The translations under genes were made by a program, and so were the position numbers. This document shows positions 1,180 to 40,606 of a stretch of DNA of 41,889 nucleotides, in pieces. The first letter of the stretch is position 1; each line of letters opens with the position of its first letter. Below the pieces are notes generated by a model that saw nothing but the letters and a program-made list of their open reading frames with translations, was not told where the DNA came from and made no database searches. The DNA comes from a virus: IMG/VR virus record IMGVR_UViG_3300036772_000565, positions 1-41,889 of that record; one strand, given 5' to 3'.

Positions 1180-1346
1180 TTAGCAACCTCACTAAGATCA
1201 ATCCATCTCTCTTTTACACCTTCCACTTTGAGAACCTGCACACCGTCCTGCCAAACACCGCGCTGAAGACGCTTGTTTATTGCTTCGGTGGTTTCTCCAG
1301 TTTCTTTGCAATAAGACGAGATAGGAACACACTCGAGGTTCAGCAT
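1140..1346 (-). CDS. xis: Excisionase (Xis-like)
   Basis: Small basic protein of 68 aa, probable recombination directionality factor. It has a winged-helix/MerR-like pattern: an N-terminal helix followed by INKRLQRGVWQDGV and a C-terminal DLSEVAKWARQN helix, as in excisionase-like (Exc) proteins. The ATG at 1346 is chosen over an upstream in-frame start at 1382 because GGAG sits at the right distance before it. The gene overlaps the start of int, which supports coupled expression from the leftward operon. Function is inferred from size, fold pattern and position. Confidence 0.8.
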   Translation of the reverse strand: MLNLECVPISSYCKETGETTEAINKRLQRGVWQDGVQVLKVEGVKERWIDLSEVAKWARQNRLNSRAA

Positions 1347-1393
1347 AATGTTCTCCACTAAAAGCCCGCTGCACACGGGCACAATGATTAAAT

Positions 1394-2873: not shown

Positions 2874-3135
2874 TACTGACTCCTTCTGGTTCAACCTTCA
2901 ACTTCAGAACGACAGGACCATCGCGAAAATCACCGTCAACGATGCCATCAAGCTCTGAAATTTCCTGCTTTGTGAGGTTGTGCATTTTTGCAATGCAGTA
3001 GTCGCCTTTCAGTACGCCAACACCAGCCGCTCGGCATGAAGTTGATCCGTAGCTGTAGCCATGACTATCAAGCCAGTTCTGGCATGCATACCACGCGTTG
3101 AAATCGCCTTTGTCGCTGAATGTCAGTTTGAACAT
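2863..3135 (-). CDS. Hypothetical phage protein
   Basis: A 90-aa protein with no family I can name. It begins MFKLTFSDKGDFNAWYACQN and ends with an acidic, beta-rich tail (VVLKLKVEPEGVSNEQ). The compact alternation of aromatic and charged residues suggests a small globular protein. The start overlaps the end of the upstream gene and its stop overlaps the next start, so it belongs to the tightly packed PL operon. Confidence 0.7.
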   Translation of the reverse strand: MFKLTFSDKGDFNAWYACQNWLDSHGYSYGSTSCRAAGVGVLKGDYCIAKMHNLTKQEISELDGIVDGDFRDGPVVLKLKVEPEGVSNEQ

Positions 3136-3854
3136 TGGTCTGACTCCTTGCGCAGCTGTTCGACCTTGCCATCAAACAGGAAATCAAGATGGTCTACAGA
3201 ATCAGACTCCAGCATTGACTTGGAGAAGTCTTTGGCTTCCTGCCACATCTGCGCCTTCAGGTCTGCAATAAAGGCGTCAGTGGCAGGTGAAGCGGCTTTG
3301 ATTATTTCCAAAGCTCGAACGTGGCCAATGCTGTCTTTCTGCTGTTCGTTAGCCCATGCCTCGATTTCAGCAAAATCGCTTAGCTCCGGAGCTTCAATGC
3401 CTGGTCCAAACACAGTGTTTTGTAGCCAGGTCATACCGTCATGCAGACGACCATTTCTGATATGCATTAGAGCAACCTGAATGCCAACCCAGTATTTATG
3501 AAGCATCCAGGCATTGGATAGTTCGCTGGCAGCCTTTGGCAGCAGGCTTGAATTCTCAACCGCCAGAATCACCACCTGCTGGTTTAGCGCTGCGACCTGC
3601 TCAGAAATACTTAACGTGTCACTTGTTCCAAGAACCTGTGTTATTTGGCTGATAGTCAGCATGGCGCTGGATAATTCTGTCCGTGCTTCGTCACGCTCTT
3701 TAAGTGCCTGGGTAACGGCTACTGTATTGGCACTAAGACGCGTAGTGAGTTCTTTCACCAGTTCTGAATGGATACCGATTTCAGTAATACTGGACACTTC
3801 ATTGCTCGCCATTGTTACCAGTTCGCTGGTGGACATATCGCTTAAGCGTTGCAT
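3123..3854 (-). CDS. Ea22-like coiled-coil phage protein
   Basis: A 243-aa protein. Residues about 25-100 are a long coiled coil (ELVKELTTRLSANTVAVT and following), then a helical segment with HKYWVGIQVALMHIRNGRL. A C-terminal segment KAASPATDAFIADLKAQ is a recurrent motif of Ead/Ea22-like proteins in lambdoid phages, where the function is unknown. The start at 3854 lies inside yfdR (stop at 3842); Met7 at 3836 is an alternative start just after that stop. Confidence 0.7.
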   Translation of the reverse strand: MQRLSDMSTSELVTMASNEVSSITEIGIHSELVKELTTRLSANTVAVTQALKERDEARTELSSAMLTISQITQVLGTSDTLSISEQVAALNQQVVILAVENSSLLPKAASELSNAWMLHKYWVGIQVALMHIRNGRLHDGMTWLQNTVFGPGIEAPELSDFAEIEAWANEQQKDSIGHVRALEIIKAASPATDAFIADLKAQMWQEAKDFSKSMLESDSVDHLDFLFDGKVEQLRKESDQCSN

Positions 3855-5385: not shown

Positions 5386-5754
5386 TTACTGTGCGCGAAG
5401 CTTGCCGTCAGGCTCGCCGGCCAATGTTAATAACTGGCCCTGATCTTCCTGCAAGATGGTTAGCTTGCCGCCACGGTTCACGTACATTGGTGTTTCGGTA
5501 GTGTCTTCTTCAGACGATTTCCCGCGTGGGGTTGGTCGGACGTAAGCCAGTTTGTGTTTGATCATCACTCGCTTTTCATCAACGGAGTTGCTCATGCGAT
5601 CCAATTCAAGGGTCAGCGTGACTTTCCCCTTTTGGCCGTTGTTAAGCACACCGAAAGCAACTTCACTGAGTGCCATAGAAATCTTGTTTTCGAAGACCCC
5701 GCCATCCAGTTCGCCGATAAAGTCCGGCACGTTAGTAGCTCGTTCACTGCTCAT
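5386..5754 (-). CDS. yfdP: YfdP-like phage protein
   Basis: A 122-aa protein starting at 5754 behind GAGG. It occupies the yfdP position directly before yfdQ and has the expected size (about 120 aa). Visible features are [38 protein letters not shown] and a [15 protein letters not shown] motif. No enzymatic motif is seen. The first gene of the PL operon after the long structured leader; the symbol rests on order, length and my memory of the CPS-53 protein. Confidence 0.75.
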
Positions 5755-5928
5755 AGGTAATTCCTCATTTAAGCGGCTGCACCCGCCGCGGGTAAGTTCT
5801 CCACATAAAATGCTGCTGTGGTGCCGGGTGCCTCCCGGTGCTGTCTGGCGGCAAACCATTCAGCGATGACCTATACCGATAATGACTTGATATTTTGCCT
5901 TTCATCGCGAGCGCTGAGCCGCATTCAC
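5755..5928 (-). other. PL leader, segment before yfdP
   Basis: Leader of the leftward transcript. It contains CTGGCGGC (plus strand, 5845-5852), which duplicates CTGGCGG at 6071-6077, so in the RNA both copies could compete for the complementary segment encoded at 6108-6114. A CCGGG/CCCGG hairpin lies near 5823-5840. Open frames of 40-86 codons cross this region but none has a good ribosome site, so I do not call a gene. Confidence 0.4.
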
Positions 5929-6059
5929 CACAACGAAGAGAGCACTGCCGGTGTCCGAGTTGAACGGACCTTTTCCCTGCCCAACCCTCCCAACTAAATG
6001 GGACTGTCTGGAATTGAACCAGCACTTATGCCTTGCTCGTCAATACTCTCATCGTTGTG
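5929..6059 (-). ncRNA. Structured tRNA-like leader RNA (possible C4-type antisense RNA)
   Basis: Leftward RNA closed by an 8-bp stem (5929-5936 with 6052-6059), extended by AGAG/CTCT. Inside are three hairpins: CTGG/CCAG (6008-6022) and GTCCG/CGGAC (5953-5969), whose 7-nt RNA loops UUCAAUU and UUCAACU both fit the tRNA T-loop consensus UUCRANY, plus UCCCA/UGGGA (5988-6003). A competing 7-bp stem (5946-5952 with 6018-6024) would form an acceptor-like stem directly flanking the GTCCG T-arm. There is no D-arm, so it is not a working tRNA. RNase P-processed C4 antisense RNAs of P1-type immunity systems are the nearest known concept; that identity is inference. Confidence 0.5.
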
Positions 6060-6070
6060 CCCTGAAAAAG

Positions 6071-6114
6071 CTGGCGGTTACCGCGACATCAACGGGAAAC
6101 AAACGGGCCGCCAG
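6071..6114 (-). other. Hairpin at the start of the PL transcript
   Basis: CTGGCGG (6071-6077) and CCGCCAG (6108-6114) form perfect 7-bp arms around 30 nt, close to the 5' end of the leftward transcript. Position fits an RNA-mediated antitermination site of the HK022 put kind or the 5' domain of the structured leader; no boxA/boxB pair of the lambda type is evident. Confidence 0.35.
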
Positions 6115-6132
6115 AACAGGGATGTAAGGCAT

Positions 6133-6202
6133 ATAAGTATTCTTACATTTCCAGTATTAGTAAACTAACAATGACTGTCAACTAAAAAATAAGAATGCTT
6201 AC
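6133..6202. promoter_or_regulatory. Left operators (three palindromes)
   Basis: Three 14-bp palindromes: ATAAGTATTCTTAC (6133-6146), ATTAGTAAACTAAC (6156-6169) and ATAAGAATGCTTAC (6189-6202). They share the RTAAG-N4-CTTAC form with the right operators and cover the leftward promoter. They are the expected binding sites of the repressor encoded at 6253-6903. Confidence 0.85.
6154..6181 (-). promoter_or_regulatory. PL promoter
   Basis: On the minus strand TTGACA (6176-6181) and TAATAC (6154-6159) are separated by 16 nt. The middle left operator overlaps the -10 element, so CI binding would block transcription of yfdP through int. The start site would fall near 6147. Confidence 0.75.
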
Positions 6203-6210
6203 ATTGAGGT

Positions 6211-6252: not shown

Positions 6253-6903
6253 TTACTGAAGGTCTATGACTACTTGCTTAACAACGCCTACAATTTGGCA
6301 ATTACCGTTCACTTCAATGGGCCGGAACATGCTGTTCAACGGGATAAGATACTTATTAGGCCCATCAATGTAGAATTTCTTGATTGTCGCTTCATTGCTG
6401 CCAGAAAGCCTGGCGATCACAATCTTATTATTTACATCTTCAATGAAACCATATTCAGGTTCCACGATGACTATAGAGTCTTCAGGTATTGATAATGGAC
6501 CGGCTGATGTCATCGATTCCCCTTTAACGCGTAGTGCAAAAGCATTTTTAGTTAGAGGAATGGTTGTATCTATAAATTCATGACTAGTAAGGTTTTCTTG
6601 TTGAACTCCGCCGCATTCAGTCCACGCACCAGCCTGTACCCATGAAATGATTGGAACTGGCCGAACTACCTTACCACTTCTTATTTCGCCTGGCTCAGGT
6701 TGACCTACGCCTGAAAGTATCCACTGAGGATCACACTGTAGGTGAGATGCCAGACGCAACAAGTTTTCGCCGGATGGATTTGTAACGTCATTTTCCCATT
6801 GGGTTACTGCAGAAGCAGAAATGCCAATCCATTCAGCTAAATCTTTCTGAGTTAGCTTCAGTAGACGTCTTCTGCTTTTGATGCGACTGCCAACAGTTTC
6901 CAC
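6253..6903 (-). CDS. cI: CI-type repressor with S24 self-cleavage domain
   Basis: A 216-aa phage repressor. Residues 1-65 form an HTH domain (LTQKDLAEWIGISASAVTQW), and 85-216 a LexA/CI peptidase domain. The cleavage site is Ala91-Gly92 (VQAGAWTE), the catalytic Ser130 lies in KGESM and the general base is Lys175 or Lys176 in EATIKKF. RecA-stimulated self-cleavage would couple induction to DNA damage. The start codon is GTG at 6903 with GGAGGTGAAGC before it; the upstream ATG frame closes after four codons. It is divergent from cro across three operators. Confidence 0.96.
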   Translation of the reverse strand: METVGSRIKSRRRLLKLTQKDLAEWIGISASAVTQWENDVTNPSGENLLRLASHLQCDPQWILSGVGQPEPGEIRSGKVVRPVPIISWVQAGAWTECGGVQQENLTSHEFIDTTIPLTKNAFALRVKGESMTSAGPLSIPEDSIVIVEPEYGFIEDVNNKIVIARLSGSNEATIKKFYIDGPNKYLIPLNSMFRPIEVNGNCQIVGVVKQVVIDLQ

Positions 6904-7004: not shown

Positions 7005-7226
7005 ATGTTGAAAACAGTCGTTTTGAATTACTTCAAAGGCACAAGCAGAACAGCTGAAGCACTAGGTGTTTCTCATAGTGCCGTCTGCCAGTGGGGGAAA
7101 GTCATCCCTGAAGGCCGAGCATTAAAAGCAGAAAAAATAACTGCCGGGGCTCTAGTTTACGATTCGTCTTTTTATGCGAATGACGTCACTGGCTTAGAAG
7201 ATAGTGGCATTAAGCCAAAAGCGTAA
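7005..7226 (+). CDS. cro: Cro-type repressor
   Basis: A 73-aa HTH protein, first gene of the PR operon and divergent from cI. The HTH is at about 10-30 (GTSRTAEALGVSHSAVCQW), a pattern shared with P22-like Cro and DicC (tyrosine- and tryptophan-rich short Cro). It would bind the same operators and lower cI and early transcription after induction. AGAGGTTGG provides the ribosome site. Size, position and HTH make this a confident call. Confidence 0.93.
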   Translation: MLKTVVLNYFKGTSRTAEALGVSHSAVCQWGKVIPEGRALKAEKITAGALVYDSSFYANDVTGLEDSGIKPKA

Positions 7227-40082: not shown

Positions 40083-40606
40083 TGATCCAGTTTAAAAATA
40101 TCAGGATTTCAAAGCAGGTAATTGAAAATGGCATGCCATTGCCATTTATTTATTTTGAAGATGAACTTGGGCGTGACTGGTACACCCTGCGCGATGAAAC
40201 ATGGAATGGAGATACGGCATTTATTGCTGTGTCAGATGACGGATTTATTGCCACAGGTGCGCGAAATCCGAACTTTATGACACTTATGGAGGGGGTCAGT
40301 ATTTATGAAATCAATGCTGAAGATTATCGGGATGATATCGGCACGGCTATTTATCGTTTTGAACAGGGAGAAATCATAGCGTATACGGTTCCCGCGAGTG
40401 AAGTTGCTGAGAGGGAAAAAAACGTGAGAATGGTGGAGGCGAATGTTGCAATTGCACCGCTCCAGGATGCTGTTGAATTAAGTATGGCTACTGATGAAGA
40501 AACTAATGCTCTGACAGCTTGGAAGAAATATCGGGTGCTTCTTAGTCGTATTGACACAAGCAAGGCTCCCGATATTGTATGGCCTACAAAGCCAGTAGTT
40601 GGTTAA
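40082..40606 (+). CDS. tfa: Tail fiber assembly protein
   Basis: A 174-aa fiber chaperone (Caudo_TAP). The C-terminal motif region [20 protein letters not shown] followed by [15 protein letters not shown] and a WPTKP end is diagnostic. The start overlaps the fiber stop as TAATGA. It would help fold or trimerise the fiber. Confidence 0.92.

Follow-up and report, generated by a model that had tools for sequence, protein, structure and literature searches.

A tRNA-like structured RNA in the early-operon leader of a prophage-like virus is one payload of a modular RNA cassette class

The put RNAs of phage HK022 consist of two short hairpins of about 70 nt and occur at both PL and PR. C4 antisense RNAs are phage regulatory RNAs with a closing stem and internal hairpins. 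Eleven copies of the prophage-borne STnc100 RNA have RNA-seq reads in E. coli O157:H7 EDL933, and a Northern blot confirmed one of them (PMC5331693). PasD is a relative of STnc100, whose matches lie near other Pas sRNAs in flanks where tRNA matches are also abundant (PMC13192938). GOLLD and ROOL are structured non-coding RNAs of phages, of unknown function and often located near tRNA islands (PMC12286853), and GOLLD combines a conserved 3' part with a variable 5' part and a linker that sometimes contains tRNAs.

Here we describe a structured RNA of about 133 nt (element E) in a window of 41,889 nucleotides, which is the whole stretch of DNA that was analysed (IMG/VR record IMGVR_UViG_3300036772_000565). 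Both HK022 put and E are structured RNAs in a PL leader, in phages where no N gene is evident, but unlike put E is a single-copy, cloverleaf-like and swappable module. It has the closing stem and internal hairpins of a C4 RNA and differs from C4 in its loops, position and pattern of variation. With tRNAs it shares a T-arm stem, the T-loop consensus, a cloverleaf-like four-way layout and tRNA neighbours, whereas it carries two T-arms and a closing stem of about 18 bp, its consensus structure has neither D-arm nor anticodon arm, and there is no CCA end or clear RNase P site. RNAs of the STnc100/PasD type resemble the cassette of E in being prophage-borne and often near tRNA matches, and they adjoin it (PMC13192938). 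GOLLD and ROOL differ from E, which is short and enterobacterial; their Rfam models gave no match to it, and the considered parts of PMC12286853 contain no layout of constant frame and variable payload. The Nus-dependent mEp phages were rejected as a precedent, as they use N-like/nut systems and not E (PMC11893012). No family of Rfam 15 covers E, and no description of E or of frame/payload cassettes was found in the open-licence literature; E is an undescribed structured RNA family.

A conserved structured RNA in an early-operon leader

The window, a viral and prophage-like record, contains an immunity region of the lambdoid type; the following features surround and compose E.

7005-7226, plus strand: Cro-like gene (ORF and Pfam)
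6253-6903, minus strand: CI-type repressor gene with HTH and S24 peptidase domains (Pfam PF00717, PF01381)
6190-6205, flanking the PL-like promoter: operator-like repeat TAAGAATGCTTACATT, resembling motifs in the cI-cro intergenic region
6181-6153, minus strand: putative PL-like promoter TTGACA-17-AATACT (consensus scan, 10/12 matches)
6134-6147, flanking the PL-like promoter: operator-like repeat TAAGTATTCTTACA, resembling motifs in the cI-cro intergenic region
6114-6065, minus strand: intrinsic-terminator-like hairpin CUGGCGG...CCGCCAG-C-UUUUU between PL and E, read from the sequence
5929-6059, minus strand: element E, tRNA-like structured RNA (covariance model and covariation in 33 homologues)
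6041-6059, minus strand: 5' strand of P1, the cassette frame common to other payloads, pairing with 5947-5929
6022-6008, minus strand: P2, T-arm-like hairpin 1, CUGG-UUCAAUU-CCAG, with T-loop UUCAAUU at 6018-6012
6003-5988, minus strand: P3, third hairpin, variable in sequence with pairing preserved
5969-5953, minus strand: P4, T-arm-like hairpin 2, GUCCG-UUCAACU-CGGAC, with T-loop UUCAACU at 5964-5958
5929-5947, minus strand: 3' strand of P1, whose CGUUGUGG end also begins the next module
5815-5934, minus strand: module M2, STnc100-like, with 5' strand GUUGUGGUG common to P1 of E and 3' strand CACCACAGC
5754-5386, minus strand: YfdP-like gene, first of the left operon (ORF; YfdP/YfdQ synteny in the annotated IAI39 locus)
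5338-4514: DUF2303/YfdQ homologue, the next gene (domain match)

Repeats of TAAGNATNCTTACA lie on both sides of the PL-like promoter, and from there to the YfdP-like gene the minus-strand leader carries the terminator-like hairpin, E and the STnc100-like module, in that order. The initial annotation had placed a multi-hairpin RNA in a PL leader, and this setting is borne out by the S24-type CI gene upstream on the same strand, the PL-like promoter and the YfdP-like gene downstream. It had treated the RNA as an isolated leader element; the element is real, but it sits in a cassette system and is preceded by the hairpin at 6114-6065. The standard terminator scanner omits this hairpin because its loop exceeds the scanner's limit, whereas a custom scan finds it, together with terminator-like hairpins in ten other E upstream flanks (11 of 74 distinct flanks). 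Elsewhere in the window, a match to the Rfam IS009 model was observed at 40360-40563 (plus strand) below threshold (43 bits vs 117, E-value 8.6e-7).

The minus strand at 6060-5928 matches R1, a covariance model built from a 33-sequence alignment, at 157 bits. This is the only strong R1 match in the window, the next scoring 11.9 bits if a reverse-strand echo is left aside, and the R1 search found no second copy on the PR side. RNAalifold and an explicit count of pairs concur on a closing stem (P1) and three hairpins. All the helices named in the initial annotation are present on the minus strand; the folding energy of 5925-6065 has a z-score of -4.0, and none of 200 dinucleotide shuffles was as stable. 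Both the P2 and P4 loops fit UUCRANY, and both arms have the features of a tRNA T-arm (a 5-bp stem closed by G-C and a UUCRANY loop), P2 having 4 bp in the window, where the fifth modelled pair (6023/6007) is unpaired. E is a cloverleaf-like fold of four helices: the long stem resembles an acceptor stem, two hairpins are genuine T-arms, and the remaining hairpin is variable. A simple tRNA or tmRNA gene was rejected at this position, where ARAGORN called none in the window and the Rfam tRNA model RF00005 gave no match.

The alignment of E comprises 33 distinct homologues and the four-helix model 33 pairs. In total, 95% of the cells of the model pair and 17 of the 33 pairs show compensated double changes; the observed covariation was reached by 0 of 500 shuffles on any of five measures, and sliding the partner strand cuts pairing to 37-50%. 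P1 has 18 pairs, 98.5% of its cells paired and compensated changes in 6 pairs, and P4 has 99.4% of its cells paired and compensated changes in 4 of 5 pairs. Compensated changes were also present in 3 of the 5 modelled pairs of P2 and in 4 of the 5 of P3. The initial annotation had left its RNA to be judged by covariation among homologues, and covariation is what these changes reveal. Its description of a tRNA mimic without a D-arm also stood, as the UUC-R-A core is invariant in both T-loops of all 33 homologues. More than 50 columns are invariant across diverse phages, which together with the 17 double-compensated pairs indicates purifying selection, and the homologues differ by indels of 1-7 nt, which argues that E is non-coding. 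E is thus a conserved structured non-coding RNA module in an early-operon leader. Its T-arm sequences and tRNA neighbours could also be those of a decayed tRNA pair without function; this reading is refuted by the covariation, besides the invariant columns, and we give it next to no credence. A degenerate E was observed at L165:1501-1597, with T-arm 1 retained with an altered loop and T-arm 2 apparently lost.

Two proposals of the initial annotation fared less well. The competing acceptor-like 7-bp stem (6024-6018/5952-5946) can form in the window sequence, but it is not conserved: none of its pairs shows compensated changes, 20 of 33 homologues leave the outermost one unpaired, and the stem is probably fortuitous. 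The suggestion of a C4-type antisense RNA failed, with the Rfam C4 model (RF01695) giving no match on the leader (5700-6200) at E-values up to 10 and positive controls scoring 82-84 bits in the loci L010, L012, L200 and L209. More broadly, an antisense RNA of the C4 (P1/P7) or P4 CI type would pair with seqA/seqC-like sites in the leader and end transcription early, and E could be such an RNA. The CACAAC, GUUGUG and CACCACAAC repeats of the leader would permit alternative pairings of one strand, and C4 RNAs do occur elsewhere in these phages, but the variable part of E compensates within its own helices and not with an external target, and we regard this role as very improbable. The true C4 RNAs adjoin isrK in the PR operons of relatives (L010:1298-1385 and L012:482-569, both on the minus strand; L200:2634-2721; L209:83-170).

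Occurrence of E and the module that follows it

More than 120 loci of enterobacterial phages and prophages carry E, with a single copy per phage. BLAST retrieved 13 phage records, part of them matching the neighbouring module only, and a query match in 127 of 5,426 E. coli genomes, not all of them to E. DNA-pattern scans added well over 100 viral contigs and five genomes (Yersinia, Rouxiella, Buttiauxella, Serratia, and Edwardsiella). When the E model was run against samples of genomes, those of the Enterobacteriaceae gave matches in 12 of 392 at E-values of 0.001 or less, some of these being weak frame-only matches, and no new genome appeared among 395 sampled from the order and 369 from the class; the filters may lose weak matches. 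At least 33 of 71 loci have an S24-type CI repressor as the nearest ORF upstream of E, and E also precedes tRNA-Arg in late-region morons of SPN1S-like phages. The gene downstream varies (YfdP-like, RdgC, and others), so E is independent of it.

The module directly 3' of E, M2, is swappable. It is STnc100-like in the window, L033 and L005, a tRNA-Arg in SPN1S-type phages, a 128-nt match to the tRNA model with a large insertion in L148, and of several other types elsewhere. In the window, the Rfam STnc100 model (RF02076) matches 5937-5809 on the minus strand, covering M2 and not E, at 36.9 bits against a gathering threshold of 47 (E-value 1.6e-6 in a short search), and M2 here differs from STnc100 in lacking its terminator. 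The L148 module (1255-1382, minus strand; 40 bits to the tRNA model) is a non-decoding tRNA-like RNA with a D-arm, a short anticodon hairpin, a variable-region insertion of about 55 nt and a T-arm; similar sequence follows E in L048, L116 and L050 and precedes it in L091. Directly 3' of E in L029, L057, L149 and L136 lies a module like a very short tRNA with a CCC-type anticodon loop, which ARAGORN does not call.

The 3' end of M2 (CACCACAAC) is an alternative pairing partner for the last bases of P1 (GUUGUG...). In 21 of 74 loci, as opposed to 0.5 in shuffles, the shared strand of E has an exact 8-base partner 93-154 nt further downstream. A generic helix test allowing G-U pairs gave no excess over shuffles. 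The excess came from the exact Watson-Crick 8-mer test alone, and we therefore restrict the claim of a shared strand to these 21 of 74 loci. In this subset, the 3' strand of the frame stem is at the same time the 5' strand of the next module, be it an STnc100-type sRNA, a tRNA or a tRNA-like RNA.

An intrinsic terminator follows E within about 330 nt in 91 of 117 distinct loci, compared with 14 of 117 on the opposite strand, and the array of cassettes is usually closed in this way. A further stem-loop often lies between the leader terminator and the first gene. Past the terminator of many loci (e.g., L002:4319-4429), another CACAAC...GUUGUG module lies just ahead of the ribosome-binding site; it contains GGGCUCAUAACCC, which may resemble the anticodon arm of an initiator tRNA. 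On L012 the STnc100 model (2993-3206, plus strand) runs from the 3' stem strand of the cassette to the leader terminator, so that what is annotated as this sRNA is M2 together with the terminator. Instead of being an sRNA gene on its own, STnc100 appears to form part of a larger leader array, as one of its modules.

Given this arrangement, the precursor of an STnc100/PasD-type base-pairing sRNA could have E as its 5' domain, with E serving the stability or processing of the sRNA and not itself active. E does abut the STnc100-like module with one strand in common, transcripts of STnc100 copies have been detected (PMC5331693), and PasA, of 84 nt, arises by processing of a longer transcript (PMC13192938). 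However, E is kept where M2 is a real tRNA or an unrelated module, and its loops are conserved above the needs of a mere stabiliser. We regard this reading as distinctly unlikely.

A constant frame around interchangeable payloads

The stem arms of E recur at its leader position in E. coli GF4 (L012) and Pantoea phage AH07 (L009), where they enclose different interiors that are free of T-loops. Between E. coli IAI39 (L010), which carries E, and GF4, the flanks are 95.8% and 96.2% identical and the 25-nt 3' stem strand is identical, while the payload and M2 are different. Two scans for the 3' strand (TGCTCT[CT]..CGTTGTGG) plus the start of M2 returned at least 251 usable sites. Among the matches listed, 164 frame sites are distinct; 160 of them have the complementary 5' strand with at most 2 mismatches in 7, and 120 have it exactly, where shuffles give 0.3. 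The search put no constraint on the three bases 5' of the anchored AAC; in the matches listed these were mostly CAC, TGC, CAT or CGC, most of which can lengthen the stem. E itself has this anatomy, with a 5' strand complementary to the TGCTCT[CT]..CGTTGTGG strand and the payload enclosed between them.

At least 67 payload families (blastn E-value 1e-3) occupy this one frame, E being family 0; the number of payloads and the family count hinge on the thresholds and, like the other counts given here, hold among the matches listed. E is one payload of a modular cassette class, in which a constant closing stem surrounds many apical domains. A strict T-arm motif occurs in 6 of the 66 other payload families among the matches listed, against 0.06 expected. 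In a search for known RNAs among the payloads, Rfam at gathering thresholds on 20 payload loci returned only tRNAs, C4, isrK, and isrJ, and a known-RNA identity was rejected on this result. Tandem cassettes exist, as in L176, where the reverse strand at about 6400-6900 holds two complete cassettes that differ in payload and each have a separate M2 after them.

Cassettes without E are also found in late leaders after Q and in co-oriented tRNA clusters. Of 73 non-E cassettes among the matches listed, 15 have CI as the upstream ORF and roughly 20 a Q-type antiterminator (PF03589, PF06530, PF06323); holin or endolysin genes are among those downstream. At 16 of 146 distinct non-E sites among the matches listed, tRNA genes were no more than 1 kb away and in every case on the same strand as the cassette. 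The placing of different payloads in one RNA stem suggests an undescribed modular way to deliver small RNAs.

The strongest rival to a role in trans is a role in cis, in which E, or the cassette frame with M2, would govern readthrough of the leader terminator by antitermination or attenuation and replace N/nut in the left operon. E loci lie mostly in PL leaders, a bias (at least 33 of 71 with CI upstream) that would also fit a cis role; a terminator follows in most of them, and related cassettes stand after Q genes and upstream of lysis genes, where antitermination also acts. Moreover, the terminator stems vary in sequence while the modules upstream of them persist, as would suit an element that modifies RNA polymerase. 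The antitermination RNA proposed in the initial annotation is nevertheless weakened by the single copy of E and its absence from the PR side of the window, by the unrelated payloads that replace it in otherwise near-identical leaders, by its position before tRNA-Arg in morons, by the terminator-like hairpin that lies upstream of E in 11 of 74 distinct flanks, that of the window included, and by an anatomy unlike the two hairpins of HK022 put. What the leader terminators keep alive is control of readthrough as such, and we consider a cis role possible but on balance unlikely.

A possible role in trans as a tRNA mimic

Our preferred reading, held with slightly less than even confidence, is that E is a tRNA-mimicking non-coding RNA made from PL that would act in trans, perhaps as a decoy for tRNA-handling proteins; we infer its transcription, processing and target. 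We prefer action in trans because E is independent of the downstream gene, is swapped wholesale for unrelated payloads, occupies a niche of tRNA genes and keeps unpaired T-loop residues invariant. The cassette sites in co-oriented tRNA clusters, the M2 modules that are real tRNAs or the 128-nt match to the tRNA model, the strand-specific terminators after E, and the expression of STnc100, an RNA of the adjacent-module type with one Northern-confirmed copy (PMC5331693), also speak for it.

On prophage derepression or early in infection, PL, under the control of CI, would transcribe the array; in the window and in the ten other loci where E follows a terminator-like hairpin, E would be made only on readthrough. 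E would then fold and be parted from its neighbours by host RNases, at a boundary marked by an exchange of strands between the next module and the outer portion of P1, and would persist as a small RNA acting in trans. Most likely it would engage readers of the tRNA elbow or T-arm, such as processing or modification enzymes, EF-Tu or tRNA-directed defence nucleases, as a decoy or competitor, because it keeps T-arm features only and has neither anticodon nor D-arm. Its role would be neither that of a decoding RNA nor that of an antisense RNA.

A wider proposal, which we advance tentatively as rather unlikely in its full form, is that enterobacterial temperate phages carry a general RNA-cassette system. 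A constant stem would recombine as a unit among early and late leaders and tRNA arrays, and hypervariable payloads, several tRNA mimics included, would each be directed against a different host target, for example as decoys against tRNA-directed or other RNA-sensing defence, with E as the tRNA-elbow mimic of the set.

Through E, STnc100/PasD, an orphan sRNA that is well expressed, is tied to a cassette architecture in which dozens of payloads are interchangeable. If the payloads act in trans, these phages would hold in their leaders a recombining library of RNA effectors, comparable to moron gene cassettes but non-coding, and this would give a testable handle on STnc100-type RNAs and on the structured leaders of lambdoid phages that lack N.
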